From an uncultured Gemmatimonadales bacterium (GTDB lineage Bacteria; Gemmatimonadota; Gemmatimonadetes; JACCXV01; JAHWKZ01), in NCBI GenBank assembly GCA_947259315.1, contig CAMYLR010000011.1, forward strand, positions 76,539-140,538: a stretch of DNA of 64,000 nucleotides, written 5' to 3'. Shown here piece by piece: positions 19,633 to 47,722 of the stretch. The notes below the pieces were generated by a model. That model did no database searches. It saw only the letters and a list, made by a program, of their open reading frames with translations, and was not told the DNA's origin. How positions within the stretch are numbered: position 1 is the stretch's first letter; every line of letters begins with the position of its first letter. Both the position numbers and the translations under genes were made by a program.

Positions 19633-20303
19633 ATGAAGTGCAGTCGGGTCGCGATTAGCACGATGGTGCTGCTTCTGCTGGGCTTCGGATTGGGACGCGC
19701 ACAGGGGCCGACGGGAGCCCCGATCGATCTGTCGTACCCGTTCAATGAGGAGACCGTGTACTGGCCCACCGCGTCGCCGTTTGAGCTGACCGTCGAGGCG
19801 GCGGGTCAGACAGAAGCGGGCTATTGGTACGCCGCTAACTCTTTTCGCGCCGCTGAGCACGGTGGGACCCACCTCGATGCACCGATCCATTTCGCCGAAG
19901 GCAAGCGTACCGCGGCCGAGATCCCGCTCGACGACCTGATGGGGCCTGGGGGAGCCGTTGGCCCGATCGATCGAGCTACTTGGGCACAGCGGAGCTCGGT
20001 CCAAGTGCGGTGGCTGATCTCCACTTTCCAGGCTTGGGTCCCGATGCGGCCACATGGTTGGTCGAAGAGCGTCGGGTGCGGGCGGTAGGGATCGATACCG
20101 CCTCGATCGACCGCGGCCAGTCGACCGAGTTCCACGCGCATCGAGTGTTGGCCGAAGCCAATGTCCCGATCTTCGAGAACGTGGCCAACCTCGACCAACT
20201 GCCACCGACCGGAGCGTGGGTTGTGGCGTTGCCAATGCAGATCGAGCGCGGCACCGGCGGTCCCCTGCGCGCCGTGGCGTTCGTACCCGACTCGGGACAG
20301 TGA
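19633..20303 (+). pseudogene. Cyclase/kynurenine formamidase-like gene with internal deletion and frameshift
   Basis: Frame 1 from ATG 19633 gives a signal peptide and the metal-binding H76-G-G-T-H80-L-D82-A-P-I-H86-F signature of the cyclase (PF04199) family, up to G-P-G-G-A-V at about 19963. The rest, R-S-S-Y-L-G-T-A-E-L-G-P then D-L-H-F-P-G-L, V-G-I-D-T-A-S-I-D and E-N-V-A-N-L-D, is in another frame from about 19972 to 20303. Compared with the usual family length about 50 residues between the two parts are absent, so a frame-breaking deletion, not a single slip, is implied. It cannot encode a full enzyme as read. Confidence 0.8.
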
Positions 20304-20304
20304 T

Positions 20305-20553
20305 GTGAGCGATACAATCGAGCGAACGGTGGGCGGCGTGACGGTACGCATCGATCGCCTCTTGTGCGTCGGTTTTGGTGACTGCATCGACGAAGCACCG
20401 CACGCGTTTGCGTTGGACGATGAGGGGATCGCGGAGTTTGGCGAGGCAGTCAACGGCGTCGACCGGGGGCAACTTATCCGCGCCTGCGAAGCGTGTCCGG
20501 TCGATGCCCTGTCGGTGCACGACGCCGACGGCAACCCGCTGGCGGCAGAGTGA
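20305..20553 (+). CDS. Small ferredoxin (3Fe-4S/4Fe-4S type)
   Basis: An 82-residue monocluster ferredoxin. Cysteines are C21-x5-C27 near the N-terminus (L-L-C-V-G-F-G-D-C) and C61-x2-C64-P near the C-terminus, with the usual P-x-x-F after the first pair. The second half is acidic, as in electron-donor ferredoxins. GTG 20305 is 1 nt after the cyclase stop, and the Mrp gene overlaps the end as GTGA, so it is probably co-translated with Mrp and may supply electrons or clusters to the same pathway. Confidence 0.8.
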   Translation: MSDTIERTVGGVTVRIDRLLCVGFGDCIDEAPHAFALDDEGIAEFGEAVNGVDRGQLIRACEACPVDALSVHDADGNPLAAE

Positions 20554-21455
20554 CCGAGCGGACGCGCAAGGTACGGACGTACCACGAGGTAGCTGATCCG
20601 GACTCCGAGGATATCGTCGGCCAAATCGAGGCTCAGCGCTCGAAGTTGGTTGGCCGTTTGGCGGACATCGATCGATTGGTGGTCGTGGCCAGCGGCAAGG
20701 GCGGGGTGGGAAAGAGCGCGATAACCGCCAATCTTGCGGCGTTGATAGCCGAACGCGGGCGTCGCGTCGGCGCCATCGATGGGGATCTGCACGGCCCGTC
20801 GTTGGCTGCCATGCTCGGTGCCGAGCGTACACCGTTGGTCGTCTCCGAGCACGGAGTCGAGCCAGCCGTCGGTGCGGCCGGCGTCAAGCTGATGTCGATG
20901 GACCTCGTGCTGTCGGATGGTGCGCCGCTCGAGTGGCGTCAACCCGAGGTGGCTGGATTTGTGTACCAGAGCACCCTCGACACCGGTGCGGTGCGGGAAC
21001 TGCTGGCCGACGTCGTGTGGGGTGAGCTCGATTTTCTGTTGATCGATGCACCGCCGGGTACCGACAAACTGGCGCGTTTGCTGGAGCTATTACCGGTGAT
21101 CGACACACTATTGTTGGTCACGACGCCATCCGAGGCGGCTCGCCGAGCGGTGGGGCGCACTGTTCGACAAGCGCACGGGACGGGGATTTCGACGATCGGG
21201 CTGGTGGCTAACATGACCGCTCACGAGTGCCCCGACTGCGGTCGGTCGGAACCGATGTTCGAGGCCGACGGCGCCGCCCGGCTGGCGACCGAAACGGGAC
21301 TCGAGCTGTGGGCCGAGGTGCCGTTCGAGCCCCGCTTCGCGGTGGCTACCGACGCCGGGCGGCCGCTCGTCCTCGAAGCGCCTGAGTCGCCAGCCGCACG
21401 CGAGCTCGGTCGCCTCGCGACCAAGCTCGCGAACGCAACGAGCGACACCGCATGA
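20550..21455 (+). CDS. mrp: Mrp/ApbC/NBP35-family Fe-S carrier ATPase
   Basis: A 301-residue P-loop ATPase. Deviant Walker A motif G-K-G-G-V-G-K-S, Walker-B-like D-F-L-L-I-D-A-P-P-G-T, and the C-x-x-C pair in H-E-C-P-D-C-G that binds a bridging 4Fe-4S cluster in the dimer. It moves Fe-S clusters to target apoproteins. The N-terminal ~45 residues are a charged extension and no DUF59 domain is present. GTG 20550 overlaps the ferredoxin stop. Its position before a radical SAM protein suggests it serves cluster loading in this block (inference). Confidence 0.88.
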   Translation: MTERTRKVRTYHEVADPDSEDIVGQIEAQRSKLVGRLADIDRLVVVASGKGGVGKSAITANLAALIAERGRRVGAIDGDLHGPSLAAMLGAERTPLVVSEHGVEPAVGAAGVKLMSMDLVLSDGAPLEWRQPEVAGFVYQSTLDTGAVRELLADVVWGELDFLLIDAPPGTDKLARLLELLPVIDTLLLVTTPSEAARRAVGRTVRQAHGTGISTIGLVANMTAHECPDCGRSEPMFEADGAARLATETGLELWAEVPFEPRFAVATDAGRPLVLEAPESPAARELGRLATKLANATSDTA

Positions 21456-21892
21456 AGTTCCTGTGTATCGACTGCGATGAGGTAATGACGTTCGCCGAAC
21501 GCGAGCTACCCGGCGACGGCACGTTGGCGGCGGTGTTCGAGTGTCCTGATTGTGGGCGCGAGATGGCGATGCTCACGAACCCGATGGAGACCAAGCTGGT
21601 GAGCGGGCTCGGGATCCAGGTCGGAGGCCGCACCGTCCCCGATCAGCCGCTGGAGCTGGTGCGATCATCGGTGACCACCGGCGACGAGCAAGCGTTCGCC
21701 GATTTGCCATTAACGGCCGGAACGGTGCGCTGGAGTGAAGCCGCTGCTGAGCGACTCCAAGGCGTCCCGGGATTCGTGCGCGGCATGGTGAAGAAGATCT
21801 ACGGCGAGTACGCCGTCGAACGGGGGATCGAGGAGATCACTCCCGAGATCATGGACCGCGCCCGGCAAGATCTCGGGCTCGAGGGGATGTAG
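21452..21892 (+). CDS. Zinc-ribbon protein with PCP_red-like domain
   Basis: A 146-residue protein. The N-terminus has two C-x2-C knuckles (C5/C8 and C31/C34), a zinc ribbon or rubredoxin-like site. Residues ~92-142 match the PCP_red pattern (PF08369-like) found at the C-terminus of ChlB/BchB: W-S-x-E-A-x-x-R-L, then V-P-x-F-V-R-G-M-V-K-K, then G-I-E-E-I-T-P-E-I-M-D-x-A. In ChlB that domain helps form the protochlorophyllide pocket. No other bch/chl gene is present, so the role must be different. It overlaps mrp by ATGA. Confidence 0.78.
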   Translation: MKFLCIDCDEVMTFAERELPGDGTLAAVFECPDCGREMAMLTNPMETKLVSGLGIQVGGRTVPDQPLELVRSSVTTGDEQAFADLPLTAGTVRWSEAAAERLQGVPGFVRGMVKKIYGEYAVERGIEEITPEIMDRARQDLGLEGM

Positions 21893-21894
21893 CG

Positions 21895-22281
21895 ATGCTG
21901 CGGCGGGCCGAGCACGAGCCACACCGGGCTCACAAGTTCCGTCAGGCGGCGATCGCCTACCTCCACTACGCGGTGCTCTACGAGCTCGGTGTTTACGCGC
22001 TCTACGAGCAGGAGATGTTTCCCGCCAGCCGCGGCTCGCCGACGGTGTGGCTGGTTTTTGGCGTGGTCATCACCGGTCTCGTCGTATGGGGTCTGTGGTG
22101 GTGGCAGAACCGGTGGTTCGCGCGCGTCGTGTGGGTGGTGATGTCGTTGCGGCTCCCGGCGCTCATGGCGGGCGCCTTTTTGGGGACCGCGACCACCGTT
22201 GCTCCGGGTTTCTACCTCGCCGGCGGTATCGTCGTAATCGCTGCGATGTGGATGATCGCTCGGGCAGCCTGGGACGTGTGA
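21895..22281 (+). CDS. Small membrane protein, function unknown
   Basis: A 128-residue protein with a soluble basic N-terminus and about three membrane segments (about residues 52-70, 85-102, 105-122). It begins 2 nt after the PCP_red gene, so it belongs to the same transcript. No motif is recognised; it may anchor or assist the module. Confidence 0.65.
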   Translation: MLRRAEHEPHRAHKFRQAAIAYLHYAVLYELGVYALYEQEMFPASRGSPTVWLVFGVVITGLVVWGLWWWQNRWFARVVWVVMSLRLPALMAGAFLGTATTVAPGFYLAGGIVVIAAMWMIARAAWDV

Positions 22282-22296
22282 GCCCGGGCCGCCGGA

Positions 22297-22325
22297 TTGA
22301 CACTACCCCCAGCCGTCAGTATATA
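22297..22325 (+). promoter_or_regulatory. Sigma70-like promoter before the USP/radical-SAM/bd-like operon
   Basis: Perfect TTGACA (22297-22302), 17-bp spacer, TATATA (22320-22325; 5 of 6 to TATAAT). The distance to the USP start at 22379 leaves a leader of about 45 nt. It would drive the gene train from USP onward; no other equally good promoter is seen as far as the end of the oxidase cluster. Confidence 0.75.
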
Positions 22326-22378
22326 AGGCGCCAACATCGCCGAAGGGTTTACGCCCCGCCGCTCTAGTCCCGGACGGC

Positions 22379-24406
22379 ATGTACCACGAGATACTGGTTC
22401 CAGTAGACAATTCAGAGCACTCTGATTGGGCGGTCGATCGTGCCATCGAGATCACCGGTCAATCCGGCGGCCGGATCACCGGTAACCACGTCTACGCCGC
22501 TCGCCTTCACGATGTTCGCTTCCGACAGCTCGAGACGGGACTTCCGGCTCAATTCCAGACACCCGAAGAGATCAAGCGACAGCGCAAGGTTCACGACAAG
22601 CTGATCGAGAAGGGCCTGCAGCTGATCAGCGATAGCTTTCTCGATCAGGTCGAGAAGCGGTGCCACGAGGCGGGCGTCGACCTCACGCGGCAGCTGCTCG
22701 AGGGGATCCACTACGAGGAGCTGATCCGCGAGGCCAATCAAGGGGTGGGACGTCTGCCTTCGCTTATCGGGTTCGACCCCAACATCGCCGACAAGTACGA
22801 CGGCGGTGACGCCGTTCGTTCCGACGTGCGCCTGGGCGCCGACGGTCGGATCGAGGCCGAGGAGGAGTCACTCGAGGAGAAGCTTGCGGGCACCTCGGAG
22901 CGGGCCTACGACCTGGTGGCGATCGGCGCCCACGGGCTCGGCCGGCAGCAGTTCAGCCAGCTCGGTGGGGTCGTCGCACGGGCGATCCGCGGCATAGAAA
23001 AGGACATCCTGATCGTCCGTGACGAGCGACCGATTCGCGACGGCAAGTACATGGTGTGCGTCGACGGCTCAGCCTACAGCTACAAGGCGATGCGTCACGC
23101 GCTCGAGCTGGCACAGATGTTCGGCGGCAAGTTGTTCGTTTGCAGCGCGTTCGACGTTGAGTACCACCACGTCGTCTTCCACAACATCAAGGATGTCTTG
23201 TCCGTACAGGCATCGAAGGTGTTCAAGTTCGAGGAGCAGGAAGAGCTCCACAACAACATCATCGACAAGGGGTTGCTCAAGCTCTGCCAAGCGAACATCA
23301 AGCGCGCCCAGGTCATGGCCGAGGAGTACCCGGACGTAGAGGTCGAAACCCAGATCCTGATCGGCAAGCCATTCCAGGTCGTGCTTCAGTGGGCCGAAGA
23401 GATCGAGCCGTCGCTGTTGATCTTCGCCCGCCACGGCAGCCATCGGATCGAGGGCACCGAATTGGGTTCGCAGGCCGAGAACTTGGCCCGCCTGGCACCT
23501 ACCAACGTGCTGCTGATCGGCACCACCGAAGTTCATCCGGAAGAGATTCCGTGGATCGAAGAAGATGGGGAAACCGGTCTCGAATGGGCTCCCGAAGCGG
23601 AAGTCCGGATCCTTCGGGTACCGCCGTTCGCGCTCGGCATCGCCCGCAAGGCGGTCGAGGAGTACGTGATCGAACGGTACGCTTCCAACGGCAACGGCTC
23701 GGGCGCGTTGCCGATAGTGACCAACGCGCGGCTCGATGAAGCGATCCAGAAACTGCTTCCCACGCACATGCAGCTCATCATGGGGATCGGCACCGCCGAA
23801 GAGCTGGCGCTAGCCGAGGTCAAGGCGGAAGAAGCGATGAAGCGCACGGTGGTGGAAGGGCACGACGACGTTCCCGTGCCCGAGACGCGGATCGTGGAGG
23901 CCAAGTGCCCCTACACCGGCCACGTCGAACAACGACCGTGGACAGCTAGCGATCCGGTCGTTTGGACGCACGAGGCGCGGCAACGTCTCGAGCTCGTTCC
24001 GCTCATCGCGCGCCCATTGGCCCGCAACACCGTTGAGCGCTTTGCCCGCGATCACGGATGGTGGCGCATCACGACGCCGGTCATGGACGAGAACAAGCAG
24101 GCGATGATCGAGGCCGACGAGTTCGATCTCGATACGATGCTCGTCATGTTCAAGGAGCTGCAGACGAAACAGATCAAAGCCGCGGCCGAAGGAGTCGACG
24201 GACTGACACCTGAGATGCGCAAGTTCATCGACGAGGCTAAGGAGGCCGGGGTCACGCGCTGTCCGATACGGGATATCGAGGCCGCTGCGGACAAGTGCCC
24301 GGTGGACTTCAAGACCGCTACCCCGGCCGAGGCCAAAGCGGCGATCGAGGCGGTCATGAAGGAGCAGAAGAGCGACGCCAACGGTGACGACCGGGACGAA
24401 GCTTGA
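22379..24406 (+). CDS. Double universal-stress protein with PCP_red-like domains
   Basis: A 675-residue cytosolic protein. Residues ~1-220 and ~224-392 are USP folds (E-I-L-V-P-V-D-N-S and M-V-C-V-D-G-S-A-Y-S openings; R-H-G-S-H-R nucleotide-loop region in the second). The first has a ~90-residue charged insert. Residues ~401-463 (L-E-W-A-P-E-A) and ~527-580 (V-V-W-T-H-E-A-R then A-R-D-H-G-W-W-R-I-T) are PCP_red-like; a third, weaker helical unit follows with cysteines (T-R-C-P-I-R-D, D-K-C-P-V-D-F). USP domains may sense ATP or energy state. The architecture is one I have not seen described. Confidence 0.8.
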   Translation: MYHEILVPVDNSEHSDWAVDRAIEITGQSGGRITGNHVYAARLHDVRFRQLETGLPAQFQTPEEIKRQRKVHDKLIEKGLQLISDSFLDQVEKRCHEAGVDLTRQLLEGIHYEELIREANQGVGRLPSLIGFDPNIADKYDGGDAVRSDVRLGADGRIEAEEESLEEKLAGTSERAYDLVAIGAHGLGRQQFSQLGGVVARAIRGIEKDILIVRDERPIRDGKYMVCVDGSAYSYKAMRHALELAQMFGGKLFVCSAFDVEYHHVVFHNIKDVLSVQASKVFKFEEQEELHNNIIDKGLLKLCQANIKRAQVMAEEYPDVEVETQILIGKPFQVVLQWAEEIEPSLLIFARHGSHRIEGTELGSQAENLARLAPTNVLLIGTTEVHPEEIPWIEEDGETGLEWAPEAEVRILRVPPFALGIARKAVEEYVIERYASNGNGSGALPIVTNARLDEAIQKLLPTHMQLIMGIGTAEELALAEVKAEEAMKRTVVEGHDDVPVPETRIVEAKCPYTGHVEQRPWTASDPVVWTHEARQRLELVPLIARPLARNTVERFARDHGWWRITTPVMDENKQAMIEADEFDLDTMLVMFKELQTKQIKAAAEGVDGLTPEMRKFIDEAKEAGVTRCPIRDIEAAADKCPVDFKTATPAEAKAAIEAVMKEQKSDANGDDRDEA

Positions 24407-25683
24407 TCTCGGCAGTACCGCATATCGTCGCTTGGAACCTCACCCGGCGCTGCAATCTCGCCTGCGCCCATTGTTACATCGCGGCTGGATCGTGGCACGC
24501 GGCTGGAGAGGAGCTGCCGACCAGTGACTGCCACCGGATCGTGGACGAGATCCTGGCGGTCAACCCGTCGCCGATGTTGATCCTGTCCGGCGGTGAGCCG
24601 CTGCTGAGGGATGACTTGGAATCGATCGCCGCTCGCGCTTCAGCCGGCGGTGCAACGGTCGTAGTCGGTACCAACGGCACTCGATTGACAGACGCGCGAA
24701 TCGCGTCGCTCATGGCGGCCGGGGTGCAGGGTGTCGCGGTGAGCGTCGACTCCCTCGACCCTGTGTATCACGATCGTTTTCGACACGGCGCGGGCGCGCT
24801 CTCCGACACGTTGGCCGCGGTAGAGCGATTGAGCGACAACCGCTTGGATCTCGTTCTGCAGACCACCGTGACCCGCGGGAATCAAGCCGAAATAGGACGC
24901 CTCGCGTCATTGGCCGCTGATTCCGGGGCGGTCGCTTTCAACGTCTACTTCGTTGTAGCCACTGGAAGAGCCGGCACCATGAAGGGGATGTCGACCGCGG
25001 AAAATGATGATGTCTTGACAGAGCTCGCCGCGCTCGAGCGCGAGTACCGCGGTCGGATGCTCGTTCGGTCGAAGTGCCAACCCCAGATCATGCGTCACGT
25101 CTACGATTCGGATCCCGAATCACCGCTGTTGAACTACGCCACTCGTTGCCCGTGCGGAGTGCAGTACTGTCGGATCACGCCCGACGGGAAAGTGACGCCG
25201 TGTCCCTACATGGAGGTCGTTGCCGGCGACTTGAGTGCGCAATCGTTCGGTGAGATCTGGAGCGACTCGCCGGTGTTTGGGGATCTGCGCAGAGGAGAGC
25301 TGGGTGGGAAGTGTGGTCGTTGCGGGTATCGTGAGATCTGCGGTGGATGCCGCGCGCGGGCCTTCGCCGAGACGGGCGACTATCTGGGACCGGACGGGTC
25401 GTGCGGCTATGAGCCTGATGGTGTCGAGTCGCCGGTGACGCGGACGCGTGAGATCACCTACGGCACGCCAGCCCGGGCCGAGCTCGAGTGGTCACCCGAG
25501 GCGGCGGAACGAGTCGCTCGGATCCCGAGCTTCGTCCGCGGTGTCGTGACTCATCGCGTCGAGACCTTTGCCGCTGACCACGGTCACGATCGCGTTACCG
25601 CCGCGCTGCTCGACGAGGTGCGATCCCAGATGCCGATCGACTTCTCGAAACGCCGACCCTTCTTCAGCCGGAAGCGCGAGTGA
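24403..25683 (+). CDS. AhbD/NirJ-like radical SAM/SPASM protein with C-terminal PCP_red-like domain
   Basis: A 426-residue radical SAM enzyme. The S-adenosylmethionine cluster motif is C17-x3-C21-x2-C24 (R-R-C-N-L-A-C-A-H-C-Y). The SPASM-type C-terminal Cys set is C-P-C-G-V-Q-Y-C ... P-C-P-Y-M ... G-K-C-G-R-C-x-Y-R-x-I-C-G-G-C-R-A-R-A, which is the form seen in the heme-maturation enzymes AhbD and NirJ. Residues ~361-410 are PCP_red-like (L-E-W-S-P-E-A-A-E-R). A tetrapyrrole substrate is likely; whether it makes heme b or a modified heme is unknown. TTG start overlaps the USP stop. Confidence 0.85.
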   Translation: MISAVPHIVAWNLTRRCNLACAHCYIAAGSWHAAGEELPTSDCHRIVDEILAVNPSPMLILSGGEPLLRDDLESIAARASAGGATVVVGTNGTRLTDARIASLMAAGVQGVAVSVDSLDPVYHDRFRHGAGALSDTLAAVERLSDNRLDLVLQTTVTRGNQAEIGRLASLAADSGAVAFNVYFVVATGRAGTMKGMSTAENDDVLTELAALEREYRGRMLVRSKCQPQIMRHVYDSDPESPLLNYATRCPCGVQYCRITPDGKVTPCPYMEVVAGDLSAQSFGEIWSDSPVFGDLRRGELGGKCGRCGYREICGGCRARAFAETGDYLGPDGSCGYEPDGVESPVTRTREITYGTPARAELEWSPEAAERVARIPSFVRGVVTHRVETFAADHGHDRVTAALLDEVRSQMPIDFSKRRPFFSRKRE

Positions 25684-25684
25684 G

Positions 25685-27508
25685 ATGAGTAGTGTCGCGA
25701 CGGTGTTTCGAATCGCCGCGGTGGGGAATCTGCCACGGCTACGTGGAACGCGTTCGTTGGTTCCTAGCTTTGGCGCGGTCGCGCTGGGGCTGCTTATGGC
25801 GCAATCGGGGTTCGCGCAGGAAGCCGGTATCGCGACCCGCGAGTACGGCGACTTCCCTTACATCGGCAGCCGAGTAGCGGTGTGGATAGCGGCGCAGGTC
25901 CACCTCATGTTCGCGGCGTTTGTTCTTGGCGTCCCGATGTTCGCGATGGTCGCCGAGGCGATCGGCATCTTTGGTGGCGACAAGCGCTACGACCGACTGG
26001 CCAAGGAGTTTACCCGACTTCTGCTGATCGCTTACAGCGCGACCGCCATCTGGGGTGCGGTTCTGGTTTTCTTCCTGACCACGTTGTACCCCCGGTTCTG
26101 GGCTCACCTGTCGGAGATCTTCGAAGTCTCGATGTGGATCTACGTCGGGCTCTTCTTCCTCGAGTCGTTCACTCTGTACCTCTACTACTACGGTTGGGAT
26201 CGTTGGAAGGCAGGGACCGCGAAGTACGCGCACTGGGGGTTGGCGATCCTGCTCAACATCTGGGGCACGGCGGTCATGTTTATCGCCGACAGTTGGTTGA
26301 GCTACATGATGAGCCCGCCGGAAGTGATCACGGCCGATCCATCGCCGGGGGTCGTTCAGTTGTGGAGCGCGATCAACAACGCCACGTGGATGCCGATCAA
26401 CATCCATCGCATCATCGCCAACGTCGTGTTCGGGGGCTCGGTCGTCGGCGCTTACGCCGCGTACCGGTTCCTGGCCGCCAAGTCCGATGAAGAGCGCGCG
26501 CACTACGACTGGATGGGGTACGTCGGCAACTTCATCGCGATCGGGGCGCTCATCATCCTGCCGTTCGCCGGTTACTACCTGGGACGCGAGATCTACGAGT
26601 TCAACCAGCAGATGGGGATCACGATGATGGGTGGTTTCATGAGCTGGTTGTGGATCATTCAGGCCTTCTTGATCGGCGTCTTGTTCTTGACCGGCAACTA
26701 CTACTTGTGGGTCGGCATGACTCGCATCCCCGGTGCCGAGCGGTTTCTTCCGTACACCAAGTGGATGCTCGTAGTGTTGGTCATCGGCGTTATCGTGTGG
26801 GCCACGCCACACACGATGATCGCCAATCGTGCCGAGCTCGAGGCGATGGGCGGCTCTCACCATCCGTTCCTGGGTGTGTTGGGCGTCATGAGCGCCAAGA
26901 ACACCGCGGTCAACCTGATGATTCTGACGACGTTCCTTTCGTTCCTGATGTACCGACGAGCCAACAAGCGCCCGGTGGTCGGGTGGGCCAAAACAGGGAC
27001 AATCGTGCAGGCTTCGCTCTTCGCGTTATCCGCCGCGGTCGTGCTCTTCTACGGCGTCTATGGCTACTTCGTGACAGCGATCGTGCGGATCGGCTTCAGC
27101 GTCTACCAGGTGCTGGCGGTGCTGGGGACGATCATCGCCGTCATGGTGCTCGATGTGTTGATGCTGCGCGGCTCCGAATCGCGAGGCGCGATTCAGTGGG
27201 GCAACATGCCGGCGCGATCGCAATACGCACTGTTTGTCTTGGTGGTCACGTTTACCTGGCTCATGGGATTGATGGGCTTCGCGCGCAGCGGCATTCGCCA
27301 ACACTGGCACGTTTGGGAGGTCATGCGCGACACCAGTCAGTGGGCGGCCACCCCAGCGTTGGGACCCGCGGCTCAGGTGATCAGCGTGTGCGTTCTGATC
27401 TTCCTCGTGCTGATCGCATTCATCTTCTGGCTTGGCGGGTTGGTGGAGAAACCGCAGCTAGTACCGGAACAACCGGCACCTGGAGCTTCCGGAACCGTGA
27501 CGAGCTAA
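25685..27508 (+). CDS. CydA-like membrane oxidase (cytochrome bd superfamily), no CydB
   Basis: A 607-residue membrane protein aligned by eye to CydA. His73 (Q-V-H-L-M-F) matches the first heme-ligand His, Glu160 (F-L-E-S ... Y-G-W-D-R) the conserved helix III Glu, and His241 (N-I-H-R-I-I-A-N) the b558 His. An N-terminal signal-like or extra membrane segment precedes the usual start of CydA. No cydB is present; c-type cytochromes follow at once. The bd superfamily includes proposed OR-C and OR-N branches without quinol-oxidase features, and this may be one of them (inference). ATG 25685 is 1 nt after the radical SAM stop. Confidence 0.8.
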   Translation: MSSVATVFRIAAVGNLPRLRGTRSLVPSFGAVALGLLMAQSGFAQEAGIATREYGDFPYIGSRVAVWIAAQVHLMFAAFVLGVPMFAMVAEAIGIFGGDKRYDRLAKEFTRLLLIAYSATAIWGAVLVFFLTTLYPRFWAHLSEIFEVSMWIYVGLFFLESFTLYLYYYGWDRWKAGTAKYAHWGLAILLNIWGTAVMFIADSWLSYMMSPPEVITADPSPGVVQLWSAINNATWMPINIHRIIANVVFGGSVVGAYAAYRFLAAKSDEERAHYDWMGYVGNFIAIGALIILPFAGYYLGREIYEFNQQMGITMMGGFMSWLWIIQAFLIGVLFLTGNYYLWVGMTRIPGAERFLPYTKWMLVVLVIGVIVWATPHTMIANRAELEAMGGSHHPFLGVLGVMSAKNTAVNLMILTTFLSFLMYRRANKRPVVGWAKTGTIVQASLFALSAAVVLFYGVYGYFVTAIVRIGFSVYQVLAVLGTIIAVMVLDVLMLRGSESRGAIQWGNMPARSQYALFVLVVTFTWLMGLMGFARSGIRQHWHVWEVMRDTSQWAATPALGPAAQVISVCVLIFLVLIAFIFWLGGLVEKPQLVPEQPAPGASGTVTS

Positions 27509-27512
27509 AACG

Positions 27513-28307
27513 ATGTGGGCGACGAACCTCAAGATTCTGGGCATCGTGCTCGGCACACTCGCCCTGTACACGTTGATCGCCAACGGCATCCCCCAGGTCG
27601 AGTCCGAGGTACCGCAGGAGTTGTCGTTCACAGGCGAAGTGAGCGCGGCCGAGTTGGTGGCGGCGGGTGAAGAGTTGTACGCCGGGGCTGGCGGCTGCAC
27701 CGCCTGCCACGGGCTCGGCACGCGGGCGCCCAACTTGTTGAGCGACGCCGGCGGTCAAGGTGCGATCGGCGCGCGCTGCGGCCAGCGCGTAGAGGGTGAA
27801 TCGTGCAAGGAGTATCTGTATCGATCGATGATCGAGCCCAATGTGTTTGTCGTTGAGGGGTTTCAGCCGATCATGCCGGACATGCGACGGACGCTGTCGG
27901 AGGTTCAGATCTGGGCCATGATCGCCTATCTGCAAAGCGTGGGGGGCGAGGTGACGGTCACCGGCGACGACATCGCGGCTGCGCAACCTGCCGGTGAAGA
28001 CGAGGCGTCGGATTCAGGTGCGGGAGCGATGATCGTAGCGACCACTGATCCGCTCGAGTTGCTGCGTGAGATGCAGTGCCTGGCTTGTCACTTGCTAGGC
28101 GACGAGGGGGCTCAAGTGGGTCCGCCTCTCGATGACCTCGGAAGCCGCCTGACGACTGATCAGATTCGTGAGTCGATCCTCGACCCCAACGCGGAGTTGG
28201 CGGCGGGCTACGAACAGTTCGGCGGTATGATGCCGGCCAACTTCGGTCAAAGGCTGACCGCCGAGCAGCTCGAGGTGATCGTGTCGTATCTCGGATCCCA
28301 AAAGTGA
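27513..28307 (+). CDS. Membrane-anchored diheme cytochrome c
   Basis: A 264-residue protein with an N-terminal membrane anchor (~7-24) and two cytochrome c domains: CTACH at 62-66 with later Met (M-P-D-M, ~121) and CLACH at 189-193 with Met-Met (~239-240). Cys89 and Cys98 may pair. An acidic linker (~150-172) separates the domains. It starts 4 nt after the CydA-like gene, which suggests it passes electrons to that protein in the periplasm. Confidence 0.88.
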   Translation: MWATNLKILGIVLGTLALYTLIANGIPQVESEVPQELSFTGEVSAAELVAAGEELYAGAGGCTACHGLGTRAPNLLSDAGGQGAIGARCGQRVEGESCKEYLYRSMIEPNVFVVEGFQPIMPDMRRTLSEVQIWAMIAYLQSVGGEVTVTGDDIAAAQPAGEDEASDSGAGAMIVATTDPLELLREMQCLACHLLGDEGAQVGPPLDDLGSRLTTDQIRESILDPNAELAAGYEQFGGMMPANFGQRLTAEQLEVIVSYLGSQK

Positions 28308-28314
28308 GCGTGAC

Positions 28315-29118
28315 TTGAGCATCAATCGGTATCTGCGCCATCCGTTTTGGCAGGCGATTCTGGTCCTAGTGATCGCGTACGTGTTGATCGAGTACGGCAT
28401 CCCGTATTTGCCTCCGCTAATCGGGATCAGCAGCGCGCCGGTACCACAGTCGGTCGTGTTGCAGTACATGCTGACCGTGTTGGCGGGAGTACTGATCTGG
28501 GTCAGCGACAATGAGGAGCGTTGGGCGCGGTTTCGCGAGCCGATCCGCGCGACGCTCGTCGATCGCGACAAGCGAGTGTTACGGATTGCGCTACTCGTCA
28601 TCGTCCCGCTGCTGACCGGATGGCTCACTTTCCGCGCCGTGCGTCAGACCGTGGCCGCGCCCCCCAGCTTGCGGTCGATCCATCCGGCACCACCGTCGTC
28701 GATCACGTTTCGTGGCCAAACGATGCAACTCGCTGGGCTGGAGAACCCGCTGCGCGAAGGCGACTTGATGGCTGAGGCCTATCGTGTCGGGAAGCGCGTT
28801 TACTACCAGAACTGTCTGCCGTGTCATGGCGACGCGCTGAGCGGAGACGGGCACTACGCGCACGGATTCACGCCCGCACCGCTGGCGTTTACCGGTTCGA
28901 GCACGATCGCTCAGCTGACCGAGAGTTTTGTGTTCTGGCGGATCGCCAAGGGCGGCCCGGGACTTCCACGCGAGGGCACGCCGTGGAACTCGGCCATGCC
29001 GGCGTGGGAGGACATCCTGAGCGAGGACGAGATCTGGTCGGTGATCGTGTTTCTGTACGAGCAGGCAGGCGTCTCGCCCCGGACTTGGGAAGAAGCCGAG
29101 GGGTCTGGTGAGCACTAA
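28315..29118 (+). CDS. Membrane cytochrome c with N-terminal transmembrane segments
   Basis: A 267-residue protein with about three hydrophobic helices (~12-30, 45-63, 90-108) and a C-terminal cytochrome c domain with one heme site, CLPCH at 167-171, then a G-x-x-x-S-A-M-P axial-Met region. The only usable start is TTG 28315, 7 nt after the previous stop. The end overlaps the next cytochrome gene by 11 nt. It is part of the bd-like oxidase train. Confidence 0.85.
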   Translation: MSINRYLRHPFWQAILVLVIAYVLIEYGIPYLPPLIGISSAPVPQSVVLQYMLTVLAGVLIWVSDNEERWARFREPIRATLVDRDKRVLRIALLVIVPLLTGWLTFRAVRQTVAAPPSLRSIHPAPPSSITFRGQTMQLAGLENPLREGDLMAEAYRVGKRVYYQNCLPCHGDALSGDGHYAHGFTPAPLAFTGSSTIAQLTESFVFWRIAKGGPGLPREGTPWNSAMPAWEDILSEDEIWSVIVFLYEQAGVSPRTWEEAEGSGEH

Positions 29119-30655
29119 GGGGTTTGCGATAGGGGTCGCGTTGAGCGCATTTGTCGCGGCCGCGCCGGCGGCCGCTCAGGAAACGCCTGTCGGAAAGGCG
29201 ATATACGATAAATGGTGCGCCGAATGCCACGGCGAGGACGGTGCAGGCGACGGCTCGGCAGCAGCCTACATGTTGCCGCAGCCGAGGGACTTCACCACCG
29301 GGCTGTACCAGATTCGCACCACGCCCAGCGGCGAGCTTCCCACCGATGATGACATCCTCAGAATGATCGACGAAGGCATGCCCGGGTCGGCGATGCCAGG
29401 CTGGAAAGAGTACCTGAGCGACACCGAGCGCAACGACCTGGTTCAGTACCTGAAGACCTTTTCACCGTTCTTCGAAGACGAAGCCCCGTCGCCGGTCGAG
29501 TACGGTGGACCGCCTGGAGTGAACGAGGAGGGCCTCGCCGAGGGGAAAGAGTTCTACGACAAGATCGAGTGCTGGAAGTGCCATGGACAGGCTGGCCGCG
29601 GAGACGGTCCGTCGGCGCCGACTCTCGAGGACGATTGGGAGCTTCCGATCCGAGCCACAGACTTGACCGAGGGTTGGAACTTCAACGGCGGCCACACGAC
29701 GGAAGCGATCTTCGCCCGGCTGATGACGGGGCTCAACGGAGCGCCGATGCCGTCGTTCGCAGACCTGATCGACGCTGAGTTCATGACCGAGGAACAGCTG
29801 TGGCGCGTTGCGCAGTACGTGAAGAGCCTCTCTCCCGAGACGCCTGAGGTTCGAGAGGTCGTTCGGGCGGCTCTGGTCGAGACGCTTCCCACGAGTGTCG
29901 ACGATCCGGCGTGGGATGCAATCGAGAGGTTTTACATCCCTCTCGTCGGGCAAATAATCGTCGAGCCGAGGTGGTTCGCGCCGACGGTCGACGGCGTGTG
30001 GGCGCAGGCCGCTCATGACGCCCAGCGCGTCGCGTTGCGCCTAACGTGGAACGATCCATCGGAGAGCCCGAATCCGGAATGGGAGGAGTGGCGGCAGCGC
30101 GTGGTCAGCGTCATGGAGCCAAGCGTCGAGGCCACTGACGAGTTGCTATCCGATGCGCTTACGGTTCAGTTCCCAACCACGATCCCCGAGGGCATGAAGC
30201 GTCCCTATTTCTTGATGGGTGCTCAGGACGAGCCGGTGTACTTGTTGAGTTGGAACAGCGGTGGCGGCGCAACCGAAGCGCTCGGTCGCGGGATGAACGC
30301 GATCGAGCCGATCGGGGGTGCCTCGACGTTGACCACTGAGTCGACGTTCGATGATGGACAATGGCGGCTCTATTTGAGTCGCGATCTGATCACTGAGAGT
30401 GCAGATCGGCTGGCTATCGAGACTGGCCGTCCGATTCCCATGGCGATCTTCGCCTGGGACGGTTCGAACGGCGAGTCCGGTACGCAGGGCGCGATAAGCA
30501 CGTGGTACTTCTTGTATCTCGATCAGCCGACGGAGAACATTACGTACGCGTTTCCGGTAGTGGCGGTGCTTTTGACAGCCGTGCTGGGCTTGGTCATCAT
30601 TGCGCGCGCTCAGCGCGCAACCGGCGGCGGTGGCCCTGAACCCGGGTCTGATTAA
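29108..30655 (+). CDS. Diheme cytochrome c fused to ethylbenzene-dehydrogenase-type heme domain
   Basis: A 515-residue protein: Sec signal (~1-24), cytochrome c domain with CAECH at 37-41, a second with CWKCH at 155-159, then ~270-470 an EB_dh-like domain (the gamma-subunit heme-b fold of DMSO-reductase-family enzymes), and a C-terminal membrane anchor (~478-500). The EB_dh call rests on W-x-x-A-A-H-D-A-Q-R-V-A-L-R-L-T-W-N-D and W-R-L-Y-L-S-R patterns. It would form a c-to-b electron wire outside the membrane. No molybdopterin catalytic subunit is nearby. Confidence 0.82.
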   Translation: MSTKGFAIGVALSAFVAAAPAAAQETPVGKAIYDKWCAECHGEDGAGDGSAAAYMLPQPRDFTTGLYQIRTTPSGELPTDDDILRMIDEGMPGSAMPGWKEYLSDTERNDLVQYLKTFSPFFEDEAPSPVEYGGPPGVNEEGLAEGKEFYDKIECWKCHGQAGRGDGPSAPTLEDDWELPIRATDLTEGWNFNGGHTTEAIFARLMTGLNGAPMPSFADLIDAEFMTEEQLWRVAQYVKSLSPETPEVREVVRAALVETLPTSVDDPAWDAIERFYIPLVGQIIVEPRWFAPTVDGVWAQAAHDAQRVALRLTWNDPSESPNPEWEEWRQRVVSVMEPSVEATDELLSDALTVQFPTTIPEGMKRPYFLMGAQDEPVYLLSWNSGGGATEALGRGMNAIEPIGGASTLTTESTFDDGQWRLYLSRDLITESADRLAIETGRPIPMAIFAWDGSNGESGTQGAISTWYFLYLDQPTENITYAFPVVAVLLTAVLGLVIIARAQRATGGGGPEPGSD

Positions 30656-30723
30656 CGTCTAGCCGACATTTAAGGGGTCGATAGCATCGTTGCATTGATC
30701 AACCACACATGAAGGAGAGGGAT

Positions 30724-31551
30724 ATGAACTTTTCACTGAGGCAGATCCTCGCCTTGGTCGTGGTGTCGGGGATCTCGATCGCCACCGCTTGTGGTGGTGG
30801 TGGCGAGCCAACCGATGACGGGGCCGACGGCGACGCTCCGGCAGCGGCCGGTCCGGTCGTAAGCCCGGACAGTGCGGCCATGATCACCGGGACGGTTTCG
30901 TTCGAAGGCACGGCGCCGGCGGCCGAGCCGATCGATATGAGCGAGGAGCCGACTTGCGCCGAGAAGCACCCCGATGGCGCCATGCGCCAACTGGTCATGG
31001 TTGCGGGCGGTGGGTTGGCCAACGTCTATGTCTACGTGAAGTCGGGGTTGGGGGACCGGAGTTTCCCGACTCCGTCGGCGCCGGTGACGCTGGACCAGGA
31101 CGGCTGCGAATACATGCCGCACGTCTTGGCGATACAGGTAGGGCAATCGCTGGAGATCAAGAACAGCGATGGGATCCTCCACAACATCAACACCCAGCCC
31201 ACCGTGAACCGCGGTTTCAACATCAGCCAGCCGGTCGTGATGGAAACGTCGCGGGAGTTTTCGCAACCGGAAGTCATGATCCCGGTCAAGTGTGATGTCC
31301 ACGGTTGGATGGAAGCGTTCATCGGTGTCCAGGCTCACCCGTACGCGGGTGTCAGTGGCGCCGACGGATCGTTCTCGTTGGCGGATCTGCCTCCCGGTGA
31401 GTACGAAATCGAAGCCTGGCATGAGTTGTACGGGACGCAGTCCCAAACGGTCACCGTAGGGGTCAAAGAGACCGCCGAAGTGAGCTTCACGTTCAGCTCC
31501 GATATGGCCGGGAACCACGTGCCTCTAGGCGAACCGCTCGTTCTCAGATGA
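30724..31551 (+). CDS. Cupredoxin-like lipoprotein with carboxypeptidase-regulatory-like domain
   Basis: A 275-residue lipoprotein, lipid Cys at ~23 (I-A-T-A-C-G-G). The central part has a likely type-1 copper site: His153 (I-L-H-N-I-N), Cys190, His193 and Met196 (V-K-C-D-V-H-G-W-M). The C-terminus (~207-265) is a carboxypeptidase-regulatory-like beta sandwich (F-S-L-A-D-L-P-P-G-E-Y-E-I-E-A-W-H). ATG 30724 follows AAGGAGAGG. The coxB start overlaps its stop (ATGA), so it is likely a periplasmic electron donor or copper-site factor for this oxidase. Confidence 0.8.
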   Translation: MNFSLRQILALVVVSGISIATACGGGGEPTDDGADGDAPAAAGPVVSPDSAAMITGTVSFEGTAPAAEPIDMSEEPTCAEKHPDGAMRQLVMVAGGGLANVYVYVKSGLGDRSFPTPSAPVTLDQDGCEYMPHVLAIQVGQSLEIKNSDGILHNINTQPTVNRGFNISQPVVMETSREFSQPEVMIPVKCDVHGWMEAFIGVQAHPYAGVSGADGSFSLADLPPGEYEIEAWHELYGTQSQTVTVGVKETAEVSFTFSSDMAGNHVPLGEPLVLR

Positions 31552-32306
31552 ACTGGAGTTGGCTGATGCCCGAGCCGGCGTCGACGTTTGGCGCCGGCAT
31601 CGACTCGATCTACTACATCATCCTGTGGATCACCGGGGCGATCTTCGTGCTCGTCGAGACCGCGTTGATCGTGTTCATCATACGGTATCGGCATCGCGAG
31701 GGTCGGGTCGCCGCTTACTCCCACGGCAACAAGAAAGCCGAAATCGTATGGACAGTGATCCCGTTCATTTTGGTGCTGTTTATCGTCTACGCCAGCAACG
31801 ACATCTGGTTGGAGGTCAAACGAGCCGACCAAGGCGGTGCGGCTCCGGCGGACGCGCTACCGCTCAGGGTAGTCGCTAAGCAATTCGAATGGAACGTGAC
31901 GTACCCGGGCCCGGACGGAGAGCTCGACACCGCTGACGATTTCGTCAAGCGAAACCAGCTTCACGTCCCCATCGGAAGGGCGGTTCGGATCGATCTCGGA
32001 TCCGAAGACGTAATTCACTCGTTCTTCCTGCCGGATTTTCGCGTCAAGCAGGACGCCGTGCCGGGGATGACGATCCCGGTCTGGTTCGAGGCCACACGAA
32101 CCGGAGAGTTCCCGTTGGCGTGCGCTGAACTGTGTGGGTTGGGGCACTATCGTATGCGCGCCTCGCTGACGGTCCACGAAGCTGCCGATTTCGATCTTTG
32201 GCAGTCCCAAGAGATCGCCGCCAGCGGCTCGCCGACTGGTGCCAGTGAGATCGATACCGAAAGAGCAAATGAAGCCGAGATCAGCGAAGGGGAGGAGAGC
32301 GCATGA
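31548..32306 (+). CDS. coxB: Cytochrome c oxidase subunit II
   Basis: A 252-residue subunit II with two N-terminal membrane helices and a CuA domain: His in D-V-I-H-S-F, then C-A-E-L-C-G-L-G-H-Y-R-M carrying both Cys, the Glu, His and Met ligands. No cytochrome c fusion, unlike the second copy at 38759-39790. It accepts electrons from a soluble or membrane cytochrome c or cupredoxin. It overlaps coxA by ATGA. Confidence 0.95.
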   Translation: MNWSWLMPEPASTFGAGIDSIYYIILWITGAIFVLVETALIVFIIRYRHREGRVAAYSHGNKKAEIVWTVIPFILVLFIVYASNDIWLEVKRADQGGAAPADALPLRVVAKQFEWNVTYPGPDGELDTADDFVKRNQLHVPIGRAVRIDLGSEDVIHSFFLPDFRVKQDAVPGMTIPVWFEATRTGEFPLACAELCGLGHYRMRASLTVHEAADFDLWQSQEIAASGSPTGASEIDTERANEAEISEGEESA

Positions 32307-34108
32307 GTACGACCCAGCTGTTGGCGCCCAACGTAACCGCGCAGCACTGGGCCGATCCGAGCCATCCGGATGATCGCCCATTCATCCGGAGATACATCTT
32401 TTCAACCGATCACAAGACGATCGGAAACCAGTTCATGTTTATGAGCTTGTTCTTTCTGCTGGTTGGCGGAGCGCTGGCGATGATGATCCGTTGGCAGCTC
32501 GGTTGGCCGGGTCAGCCGATGCCCGGGGGAGGGGTGCTGCCCGAGACGATGGCGCCGGGCGGAATCCTGTTGCCCGAGTTCTACAACTCGCTGGTCACCA
32601 TGCACGGCACGTTCATGATCTTCTTTGCCATCATGCCCTTGCTGGTAGGGATGTTCGGCAACTGGCTAATCCCGCTCCATGTCGGTGCTTCTGACATGGC
32701 GTTCCCGCGGCTCAACATGATGTCGTTTTGGTCGGCTGTCCCCGCGGGGTTCATCATGCTGGCCAGCTTCGTCGTCGAAGGTGGAGCCGCCGGGGCGGGG
32801 TGGACGGCTTATCCGCCACTGAGCGCGGTGCCGGAGTACAGTGGGGTCTCGACCGGACAGCAACTTTGGTGTGTGAGCCTGATCATCCTCGGGTTCTCTT
32901 CGCTGATGGGGGCGGTCAACTACATCACTACGATCGTCAATATGCGCGCTCCCGGTATGACCTGGATGCGCATGCCGTTGCCGATCTGGTCGCTCTTTAT
33001 CACCGCGATCTTGATCCTGCTGGCGATCCCGATCCTGGCTGGCGCAGCGATCATGTTGCTGTTCGACCAGACGATCGGCACGACGTTCTTCCTGCCCGAG
33101 GCCGGTGGTCAGCCGCTACTGTGGCAGCACCTGTTCTGGTACTTCGGCCACCCCGAGGTCTACATCCTGATCCTACCAGCGATGGGCGTCGCGTCCGAAG
33201 TGATCGCAAATGGATCACGCAAGCCGATCTTTGGTTATCCCGCGATGGTCGGCGCGATCGTGGCTATCGCGTTCCTCGGTTGGATCGTGTGGGGACACCA
33301 CATGTTCCAGAGCGGGATGAACCCGCTTCTGGGATCCAGCTTTATGCTGTCGACGATGATCATCGCCGTGCCTTCAGCGATCAAAGTGTTCAACTGGCTG
33401 GGTACGATTTGGCGCGGCGACATTCACTTCCATACGCCTATGTTGAACGCTCTAGCTTTCGTCGGGATGTTCGTGATCGGTGGATTGTCGGGCGTGTTCA
33501 TGGCGTCGACGCCGGTCGACATTTACATCCACGACACGTACTTCATCGTCGCGCACCTCCATTACGTGCTGTTTGGCGGCAGCCTGTTCGCGATCTTCGC
33601 CGGGATCTACTTCTGGTTCCCGAAGTTCTTCGGCCGGATGTTGAGCCCAACCCTCGGCAAGATTCACTTCGCACTCACGTTCGTGTTTTACAACCTGGTG
33701 TTCTTTCCGATGCATAATCTCGGGTTGGGCGGCATGATGCGGCGCATCTATGACCCCAATCAGTACGGCTTCCTCGAGCCGCTTCAGCCGATGAACACGT
33801 TCGTGTCGGTGTTCGCGTTGGCACTCGGTGTGAGCCAGCTGGTGTTCTTCTTCAACATCCTCTGGTCGCTGTGGCGCGGAGAGAAAGCGCCAGAGAATCC
33901 GTGGCGGTCGAACTCGTTGGAGTGGAGCCTGGCGTCGCCGCCGCCGCACGGAAACTTCGAAGCGATGCCGGCGGTGTATCGCGGGCCATACGAGTACAGC
34001 TACCCCGGTCGAGGCGAGGACTTCTGGCTCCAGGGTGAGCCACCGGACGGCGGAGCGGTCCATGCGCCCACCGGTGGGGCACCGGTGGGCGAGGGGGTGC
34101 CCCAATGA
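32303..34108 (+). CDS. coxA: Cytochrome c oxidase subunit I
   Basis: A 601-residue heme-copper oxidase subunit I. F-G-H-P-E-V-Y-I carries the CuB His, the D-channel Glu and the cross-linked Tyr (A1-type); W-G-H-H-M-F has the two other CuB His; H-D-T-Y-F-I-V-A-H-L-H-Y carries the heme a3 and heme a ligands. Reduces O2 to water with proton pumping. Tightly coupled to subunits II and III through ATGA overlaps. Confidence 0.96.
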   Translation: MSTTQLLAPNVTAQHWADPSHPDDRPFIRRYIFSTDHKTIGNQFMFMSLFFLLVGGALAMMIRWQLGWPGQPMPGGGVLPETMAPGGILLPEFYNSLVTMHGTFMIFFAIMPLLVGMFGNWLIPLHVGASDMAFPRLNMMSFWSAVPAGFIMLASFVVEGGAAGAGWTAYPPLSAVPEYSGVSTGQQLWCVSLIILGFSSLMGAVNYITTIVNMRAPGMTWMRMPLPIWSLFITAILILLAIPILAGAAIMLLFDQTIGTTFFLPEAGGQPLLWQHLFWYFGHPEVYILILPAMGVASEVIANGSRKPIFGYPAMVGAIVAIAFLGWIVWGHHMFQSGMNPLLGSSFMLSTMIIAVPSAIKVFNWLGTIWRGDIHFHTPMLNALAFVGMFVIGGLSGVFMASTPVDIYIHDTYFIVAHLHYVLFGGSLFAIFAGIYFWFPKFFGRMLSPTLGKIHFALTFVFYNLVFFPMHNLGLGGMMRRIYDPNQYGFLEPLQPMNTFVSVFALALGVSQLVFFFNILWSLWRGEKAPENPWRSNSLEWSLASPPPHGNFEAMPAVYRGPYEYSYPGRGEDFWLQGEPPDGGAVHAPTGGAPVGEGVPQ

Positions 34109-34734
34109 GCGAGGCGGCAGCCATTCACGCCCACGCTCCGCGCCCCATGGAGGGGATCCGGGTCTACAACGTGAAGCTCGGAATGTGGGTCTTCCTGCTG
34201 TCCGAGGTGATGTTTTTCAGCGGGCTGATCGGCGCGTACATCATCCTGCGGTTTGCAAACCCAGAACAATGGGCGGCGCCGGGTGAGGTGCTAAACGTCA
34301 CGCTGACGGCGTTCAACACGTTTATGCTGATCTGTAGCAGTGTAACGATGGTGAAGGCCTTTGCCGCGATCGAGCACGGCGATCAGGCCGGGCTCAAGAG
34401 GTGGCTGCTGGCGACGATCGTTCTGGGCGCGGCGTTTGTCGGCATTCAGGTCTTCGAGTACATCAAGCTCGCCGAGCACGGGTTTGTGCCGATGGCCAGC
34501 CAGTACGCTGCGGACGGCGGCGGGCCACTGTATGGCTCCACGTTCTACACGATGACCGGCTTCCACGGTGCGCACGTTACGATCGGCGTGCTGTGCCTCA
34601 TCTTCACGTTGGTCAAGGCGCTACGCGGTCACTACACCGAGGAGTACTACTCGGGCGTGGAGATCATGGGGTTGTACTGGCACTTCGTGGATCTGGTTTG
34701 GATTATCTTGTTCACGATCGTTTACTTGATCTAG
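34105..34734 (+). CDS. coxC: Cytochrome c oxidase subunit III
   Basis: A 209-residue subunit III with about five to seven membrane helices. Family marks are K-L-G-M-W-V-F-L-L-S-E-V-M-F-F, T-G-F-H-G-A-H-V-T-I-G and the C-terminal Y-W-H-F-V-D-L-V-W-I. Overlaps coxA by ATGA. Confidence 0.93.
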   Translation: MSEAAAIHAHAPRPMEGIRVYNVKLGMWVFLLSEVMFFSGLIGAYIILRFANPEQWAAPGEVLNVTLTAFNTFMLICSSVTMVKAFAAIEHGDQAGLKRWLLATIVLGAAFVGIQVFEYIKLAEHGFVPMASQYAADGGGPLYGSTFYTMTGFHGAHVTIGVLCLIFTLVKALRGHYTEEYYSGVEIMGLYWHFVDLVWIILFTIVYLI

Positions 34735-41740: not shown

Positions 41741-41818
<78 letters not shown>

Positions 41819-41852
41819 TGCAAACAAGCTTGCCCCAAACCGTTTCCCGCCG

Positions 41853-43103: not shown

Positions 43104-44019
43104 AGCGCGGCCGCGGTTGCGGATCGGGACCCGGGGTAGCGCACTAGCCAGAGCCCAAACGCGGCTCGTCTCGCGGGCACTCGAAGCGGCCGGTTGGGAA
43201 ACCGAGGAAGTCGTCGTGCGAACGGCTGGGGATCGGTCTCCGGATGCGTCTCCGGCCGAGTTGGGGCGCGGCGCTTTCGTGGCTGCGCTCGAGCGTGCCC
43301 TCACGGATCGGTCGGTCGACCTGACCGTGCACAGCGCCAAGGACTTGCCAACTGGTGATCGGCCCGCGGTGACGGTGATCGCTTACCCACCACGCGCGGA
43401 CGCCCGCGACGCGATCGTGACCCGCGACGGGGAACCACTGGCGAGTCTGCCGCCGGGTGCGCGGGTCGCAACATCGAGTCCTCGCCGACGCGCATTCCTG
43501 CTGTCCGAGCGTGACGACCTCAACGTGGTCCCGATTCGCGGCAACGTCGATACGCGACTCGCCAAGCTGGATCGGGGTGACGTCGACGCTTTGTGCGTTG
43601 CAGCAGCGGGGCTCGATCGGCTCGGTTTGGCGAGCCGCGCCGCTGAGCGGCTTGCGCCAGCGCGTATGCTCCCGGCTGTTGGTCAGGGCGCTCTCGCGGT
43701 TCAGATCCGAAACGAGGATGAAGACCTCGAGGGTGATCTCAGTTCGCTTGATGATCCGATTACGCGCCGGGCGGTGACCGCGGAGCGCAGTTTTCTGGGA
43801 GCGATGGGGGGTGGCTGCCAGACCCCGCTGGCGGCTTACGCGATCTGCGAAGACGACCAGCTGACGATCGATGGGGCAGCGATCGACCCCGCTGGCGGCC
43901 AGGCGTTCTTTGATCGCTCGACCGGCCCGATCGACGAGGCCGCTCGGATCGGGAGTCAGCTCGCCGAGCGACTGCTGGCGAATGGCGCCGATGTGATCGT
44001 GGGGGTGGGACTGAAGTGA
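43078..44019 (+). CDS. hemC: Hydroxymethylbilane synthase (porphobilinogen deaminase)
   Basis: Joins four porphobilinogen to the linear tetrapyrrole. 313 residues. The N-terminus has I-G-T-R-G-S-A-L-A-R-A-Q; H-S-A-K-D-L-P-T and the dipyrromethane Cys247 in G-G-G-C-Q-T-P-L-A are present. Several in-frame starts near 43078; it overlaps hemA by 26 nt and hemD by GTGA. Confidence 0.95.
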   Translation: MVGVTVVGEARPRLRIGTRGSALARAQTRLVSRALEAAGWETEEVVVRTAGDRSPDASPAELGRGAFVAALERALTDRSVDLTVHSAKDLPTGDRPAVTVIAYPPRADARDAIVTRDGEPLASLPPGARVATSSPRRRAFLLSERDDLNVVPIRGNVDTRLAKLDRGDVDALCVAAAGLDRLGLASRAAERLAPARMLPAVGQGALAVQIRNEDEDLEGDLSSLDDPITRRAVTAERSFLGAMGGGCQTPLAAYAICEDDQLTIDGAAIDPAGGQAFFDRSTGPIDEAARIGSQLAERLLANGADVIVGVGLK

Positions 44020-47707: not shown

Positions 47708-47722
47708 CCGGTCCCGGTTCTC

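Follow-up and report, generated by a model that had tools for sequence, protein, structure and literature searches.

What do genes for PCP_red-domain proteins have to do with a CydA-like cytochrome? The question is raised by a window of 64,000 nucleotides (the whole stretch of DNA that was analysed) from an uncultured Gemmatimonadales bacterium (contig CAMYLR010000011.1), in which a ferredoxin, an Mrp/ApbC-type NTPase and three proteins with PCP_red domains are encoded upstream of a CydA-like (bd-like) membrane subunit, two cytochromes c and an NxrC-like protein. An earlier, sequence-only reading had proposed that the PCP_red genes, one of which encodes a radical SAM enzyme, belong together as a module linked to the CydA-like gene, and both gene linkage and co-occurrence supported this proposal. 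At least six bacterial phyla, with nitrite oxidisers and anammox bacteria among their members, showed near-perfect co-inheritance of the module and the bd-like protein, and it is very probable that the two are functionally linked.

Searches for PCP_red and the CydA-like protein covered 150 Gemmatimonadota genomes, including that of the window; CydA-like genes counted as close when they scored above 900 bits, and photosynthetic BchB-type matches were not taken as the module. Both partners were found in 41 genomes, the CydA-like gene alone in none and PCP_red alone in two (107 others; descriptive Fisher value, 8e-35). The two PCP_red-only genomes were G016 and G093 (a short, odd contig in one case, a weak match in the other). 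G016 was set aside: its diverged module lacked a close CydA-like gene and lay on a 9.6-kb contig (C1, locus L040) that was cut at both ends and unlike its group. This locus looks like contamination from another phylum. Adjacency was examined in 20 Gemmatimonadota regions, and 19 of them contained a close CydA-like gene. The gene order of the window recurred across the phylum, with the cupredoxin-like gene and coxBAC kept downstream; contamination or chance assembly as the origin of the block was therefore rejected. Because presence and absence of the pair were mixed within two families (f2 and f5), it is probable that module and CydA-like gene were jointly acquired or lost on more than one occasion. 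In one locus (L110, 3453-14391), two sets of CydA-like, cytochrome c and NxrC-like genes flanked a USP/PCP_red-radical SAM pair.

Beyond this phylum, named genomes outside true Nitrospira were scanned with the USP/PCP_red alignment, and genes were called by hidden Markov models. Module and cytochrome genes stood side by side, in rearranged clusters of varied order, in Bacteroidota (L041, L042), SAR324 (L044), Fibrobacterota (L046), a Rokubacteria metagenome-assembled genome (L084) and Candidatus Anammoxibacter (L095). In a Chloroflexota locus (L077), a cytochrome c-NxrC-cupredoxin-coxBAC run adjoined the USP/PCP_red, mrp, zinc/PCP_red and radical SAM genes. The CydA-like gene was present in 12 of the 13 genomes reached through module loci of several phyla. 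Among 77 Nitrospinota genomes, 70 had both genes, three had PCP_red only, none had the CydA-like gene only and four had neither, so that presence agreed in 74. Agreement was also high in the anammox order (61 of 62 genomes: 51 with both, none with PCP_red only, one with the CydA-like gene only and 10 with neither). A 24-genome phylum around L050 showed the same trend (22 with both, one with PCP_red only, one with neither), which was not significant alone (P = 0.08). In Nitrospinota and in the L050 phylum the two genes were mostly on separate contigs, and the association is thus more than shared synteny. In 26 anammox-order genomes a PCP_red gene was located 7.5-9.1 kb from the CydA-like gene; it was of the USP/PCP_red type in the one that was typed (L138). 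Regular occurrence of the module without the CydA-like gene, the outcome named beforehand as fatal to the proposal, was not seen in the genomes surveyed. In Candidatus Anammoxibacter (L095) the module shared its cluster with two NxrC-like genes and with genes for cupredoxin-like proteins and for a cytochrome c with four hemes, and the bd-like protein was present in an anaerobic lineage.

In the window, 14 genes, all on the + strand, formed one unbroken run at 20305-34734 (open reading frames, Pfam and NCBIfam). The sequence-only reading had placed the block at 20305-30655; the genes it named there were all present, head to tail and in the order given. These limits stood as the core of the run; as its full extent they were too narrow, leaving out the cupredoxin-like protein and coxB, coxA and coxC. 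Neighbouring genes within the core overlapped by 4-61 bp or were separated by gaps of 1-97 bp, a spacing that is operon-like. The genes are as follows.

20305-20553, + strand: 4Fe-4S single-cluster ferredoxin (Fer4_15 2.8e-9, Fer4_13 2.5e-7)
20493-21455, + strand: Mrp/ApbC/NBP35-type P-loop NTPase (PF10609 4.9e-62) with a CPDC Fe-S motif read from the translation
21452-21892, + strand: zinc-ribbon-like N terminus and PCP_red (PF08369 2.4e-14, 53.5 bits; cut-off 32.5)
21895-22281, + strand: small hydrophobic protein of 128 amino acids, without family (no Pfam match)
22379-24406, + strand: Usp domains (1.4e-32) and two PCP_red domains (3.3e-15, two stretches)
24403-25683, + strand: radical SAM/SPASM protein with C-terminal PCP_red, AhbD/NirJ2-like (Pfam, NCBIfam, SPASM motif, AlphaFold)
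25685-27508, + strand: CydA-like (bd-like, putatively OR-N-related) membrane cytochrome subunit (PF01654 3.8e-21, 75.6 bits)
27513-28307, + strand: diheme cytochrome c (two CXXCH; Pfam)
28315-29118, + strand: membrane-anchored monoheme cytochrome c (one CXXCH; Pfam; anchor read from the sequence)
29108-30655, + strand: NxrC-like protein with two heme c motifs (two CXXCH), EB_dh (1.5e-14; type II dimethyl sulfoxide reductase gamma 1.7e-24) and a C-terminal transmembrane helix read from the sequence
30709-31551, + strand: cupredoxin-like/carboxypeptidase-regulatory-domain protein (CarboxypepD_reg 1.1e-8)
31548-32306, + strand: coxB (Pfam)
32303-34108, + strand: coxA (Pfam)
34105-34734, + strand: coxC (Pfam)

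The true start of the Mrp/ApbC NTPase is probably 20550 rather than 20493. The zinc ribbon of the 21452-21892 protein was assigned from CxxC pairs and sub-threshold matches, and the cupredoxin at 30709-31551 from a His/Cys/His/Met pattern with a sub-threshold plastocyanin match. The 128-amino-acid hydrophobic protein occurred in some Gemmatimonadota clusters and was absent from others. Upstream of the block, a putative cyclase (PF04199) was split across overlapping frames (19633-20088 and 19980-20303), which look like a frameshift or an assembly error.

All three PCP_red proteins exceeded the curated Pfam cut-off (32.5 bits), and there were no further PCP_red matches in the genome, which therefore has no BchB. 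The PCP_red domain of the zinc-ribbon protein matched the C terminus of subunit B of the light-independent protochlorophyllide reductase DPOR (2xdq; phmmer 4.9e-6); the domain is homologous to that C terminus, and contact with a tetrapyrrole is predicted from this homology. PCP_red is shared with ChlB/BchB, subunit B of that reductase, whereas the window proteins lack the nitrogenase-like part and carry PCP_red fused to USP, radical SAM or zinc-ribbon proteins. A remnant of photosynthesis was rejected as their origin, the genome being without BchB and the BchB-type matches sitting in other Gemmatimonadota. Those matches, assigned by score (71-77 bits) and frame length (long frames), made up most of the other PCP_red matches in the phylum; only in G099, among the Gemmatimonadota searched, was one found together with a close CydA-like gene. 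The USP/PCP_red proteins of SAR324, Deltaproteobacteria and Fibrobacterota had at least five PCP_red copies each (L044 9410-11827; G151-G154), which would fit a carrier or storage role. One of them also had a rubredoxin-like domain.

The radical SAM protein resembles AhbD/NirJ-type enzymes without meeting either family's curated score. Its best NCBIfam models were NirJ2 (269 bits) and AhbD (TIGR04545; 264 bits, 2.4e-78), both short of a cut-off of 500 bits, and the NirJ model gave 170 bits against a cut-off of 515. NirJ2 and AhbD were the top models in all 17 radical SAM relatives, and peptide-maturase models scored far lower on the window protein (approximately 90-125 bits). The AhbD motif comprises CX3CX2C and a full SPASM domain of spacing CX20-33CX17CX36-37CX2CX5CX2CX17-35C (PMC10452713). 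CX3CX2C was found in 17 of 17 relatives and the full eight-cysteine spacing in 15, including the window protein (residues 225-334). In the AlphaFold model (mean predicted local distance difference test, pLDDT, 87.8), PCP_red formed a three-helix C-terminal domain. The likeness to AhbD (heme b synthase) and to NirJ/NirJ2 (heme d1) thus lies in the radical SAM domain, the full SPASM domain at AhbD cysteine spacing and the top NCBIfam matches; unlike those enzymes, the window protein has an additional C-terminal PCP_red domain, and the block has no AhbA/B/C or heme d1 genes. As had been proposed, no genes for chlorophyll (no BchB in the genome) or heme d1 (none in the block) accompany it, and the separate heme b pathway with HemQ, expected at 42-50 kb, was located at 41757-49641 (HemA, C, D, B, Q, L, E, H). 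With this pathway present, ordinary heme b does not depend on the radical SAM protein, and such a dependence was rejected; an anoxic back-up would be compatible.

To characterise the CydA-like protein, 17 sequences from several phyla were aligned with Escherichia coli CydA; the N-terminal part of the alignment agreed with hhalign, and the C-terminal part was less certain, with no assignable equivalent of M393. The equivalents of H19, H186, E107 and R448 were invariant (17/17). The Glu99 position was Tyr in all 17 sequences (Tyr153 in the window) and Glu445, in the less certain C-terminal alignment, was not conserved, so that of the canonical bd heme-ligand set (H19, H186, E99, E445) only H19 and H186 were kept in 17 of 17. 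Tyr153, His183, His393 and His542 were invariant throughout the family and are candidates for altered heme ligation. The best Foldseek matches of the AlphaFold model (pLDDT 75.6, informative on fold alone and not on heme geometry) were CydA chains, with modest scores. No CydB (PF02322) match was found in this genome, and the same profile matched 10 of 14 control genomes; canonical CydAB was therefore rejected. CydB matches occurred in 7 of the 41 module genomes, each on a contig with a separate canonical-like CydA. In sum, the CydA fold and the H19, H186, E107 and R448 equivalents are shared with canonical cytochrome bd, whereas the window system has associated cytochromes c and has Tyr for Glu99, no conserved Glu445 and no CydB; because of these last three differences, the oxidase role is putative.

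The CydA-like/cytochrome/NxrC half of the block is already known from nitrifiers and anammox bacteria (PMC3578206, PMC6606698), and in this respect the claim of an undescribed module did not stand. PMC6606698 describes in Nitrospira moscoviensis a cluster that encodes a bd-like oxidase, two c-type cytochromes and an alternative NxrC in which a transmembrane helix is combined with two heme c motifs, and PMC3578206 reports, for Nitrospina gracilis, Kuenenia and Nitrospira, a bd-like cluster that also has cupredoxins and a zinc-finger protein. Relatives from Nitrospinota and Nitrospirales are assigned to the OR-N type, with cytochrome c as the proposed electron source (PMC10839748, PMC12342949); nearly all Nitrospinota CydA are of this type according to PMC10839748, and our profile search found CydA-like genes in 70 of 77 Nitrospinota genomes. 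In all these papers the function is putative: for nitrite oxidisers the bd-like protein is put forward as a candidate terminal oxidase, with subunits and cofactors that are likewise presumed. The window block likewise contained a bd-like gene, diheme and monoheme cytochromes c and an NxrC-like protein with two heme c motifs. It shares with the published clusters a CydA homologue that appears to lack the Q-loop quinol residues, the transmembrane helix of the two-heme NxrC, and cupredoxin-like and zinc-finger proteins nearby; it differs in that coxBAC follows in Gemmatimonadota and that neither NxrA nor NxrB was seen in the block. The available descriptions also make no mention of PCP_red, USP or radical SAM genes, and a literature search of partial coverage found no such proteins tied to the bd-like cluster. 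The PCP_red half thus appears undescribed, and for this half the claim was upheld.

Three PCP_red proteins, one of them an AhbD/NirJ-like fusion, and their tie to one heme protein family suggest heme maturation or modification. The atypical heme region of the CydA-like protein and the HemQ pathway, which makes the radical SAM enzyme dispensable for ordinary heme b, count in favour of this view. We give an even chance to the explanation that the PCP_red proteins act in the cytosol as a module for handling tetrapyrroles, by which heme is matured for the complex made up of the CydA-like subunit, the two cytochromes c (diheme and monoheme) and the NxrC-like protein. In such a module, the zinc-ribbon/PCP_red and USP/PCP_red proteins would use their PCP_red domains to bind a tetrapyrrole or hand it on, and the radical SAM enzyme, with its own PCP_red and three Fe-S clusters, would change a side chain of heme or coproheme. 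The ferredoxin and Mrp would provide electrons and Fe-S clusters, and the modified tetrapyrrole would be delivered to the CydA-like subunit. We infer the tetrapyrrole substrate, the delivery and any ATP role of the USP domains; for the modification of the heme itself the chances are about balanced. The special heme of the sequence-only reading, and its suggestion that the USP domains act as an energy sensor, are hypothetical. The delivery step is conditional because co-occurrence cannot separate the CydA-like protein from its companion cytochromes. Tentatively, and with the probability somewhat against it, many Gemmatimonadota may have in common with nitrite oxidisers and anammox bacteria an undescribed pathway by which PCP_red carrier proteins and an AhbD/NirJ-like radical SAM enzyme would make a new modified heme as the cofactor of the bd-like (OR-N) complex.

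Several points weigh against heme maturation by the module. SPASM enzymes characterised so far mostly modify peptides or proteins, and the solved structures closest to the radical SAM protein were PqqE, SkfB and SuiB, with no AhbD or NirJ structure among the matches; its scores were about half of the AhbD and NirJ2 cut-offs, and two Fibrobacterota relatives missed the exact SPASM spacing, though their cysteines align. The PCP_red domain might serve for docking, and the substrate, product and cofactor of the module are predicted from sequence. A few genomes carried one partner only, which probably reflects assembly gaps, and the Fisher values ignore phylogeny and so overstate the independent evidence. 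The first two points favour an alternative in which a subunit of the complex is the target: the radical SAM/SPASM enzyme would alter one of its amino acid side chains, for instance by crosslinking a Tyr or Cys, and the PCP_red domains would serve to dock proteins; the invariant, family-specific Tyr153, His393 and His542 could be seen in the same light. We consider this quite unlikely, given the 269 and 264 bits for NirJ2 and AhbD vs. approximately 90-125 bits for peptide-maturase models and the fact that no conserved gene for a precursor peptide was noticed in the clusters.

It is also unlikely that the enzyme is an oxygen-independent coproheme decarboxylase with AhbD function, supplying heme b when HemQ fails and residing in the operon since the complex is rich in heme. 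The AhbD-type cysteine spacing (PMC10452713) and the model match of 2.4e-78 agree with such a function, coproheme could be obtained from the coproporphyrin pathway genes, and PCP_red genes do occur in the anaerobic anammox order. Yet the score was half of the AhbD cut-off, NirJ2 fitted equally well and HemQ is present in this genome; a general heme supplier, moreover, would hardly track one cytochrome so tightly across several groups, and the USP- and zinc-ribbon-PCP_red partners would be unexpected. A low probability was likewise given to the module serving another part of the complex (the NxrC-like heme, the c-type cytochromes or copper sites), or regulation or storage, with the CydA-like protein a mere companion. 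The CydA-like gene and those for the cytochrome c, NxrC-like and cupredoxin-like proteins keep together and are inseparable by co-occurrence, and Usp, a stress domain, binds nucleotides and has ATP-binding relatives of known structure, both of which would accord with this view. Families such as EB_dh, cytochrome c and Cox, however, generally occur widely outside the module, it is the CydA-like family that tracks it, and the presence of an AhbD/NirJ-like enzyme points to a substrate that is chemically changed.

Anammox bacteria have the bd-like protein although they are anaerobic. If heme maturation by a dedicated module is true, a standard host that lacks the module might be unable to produce the protein or might give it the wrong heme, the module would provide a direct genetic handle on the role of this protein in the nitrogen cycle, and PCP_red would gain a role outside chlorophyll synthesis. 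Radical SAM tetrapyrrole maturation is a known kind of process, and a more novel one is a realistic prospect here. The data suggest that bacteria with the module may build or modify a heme for the bd-like protein by an undescribed route.

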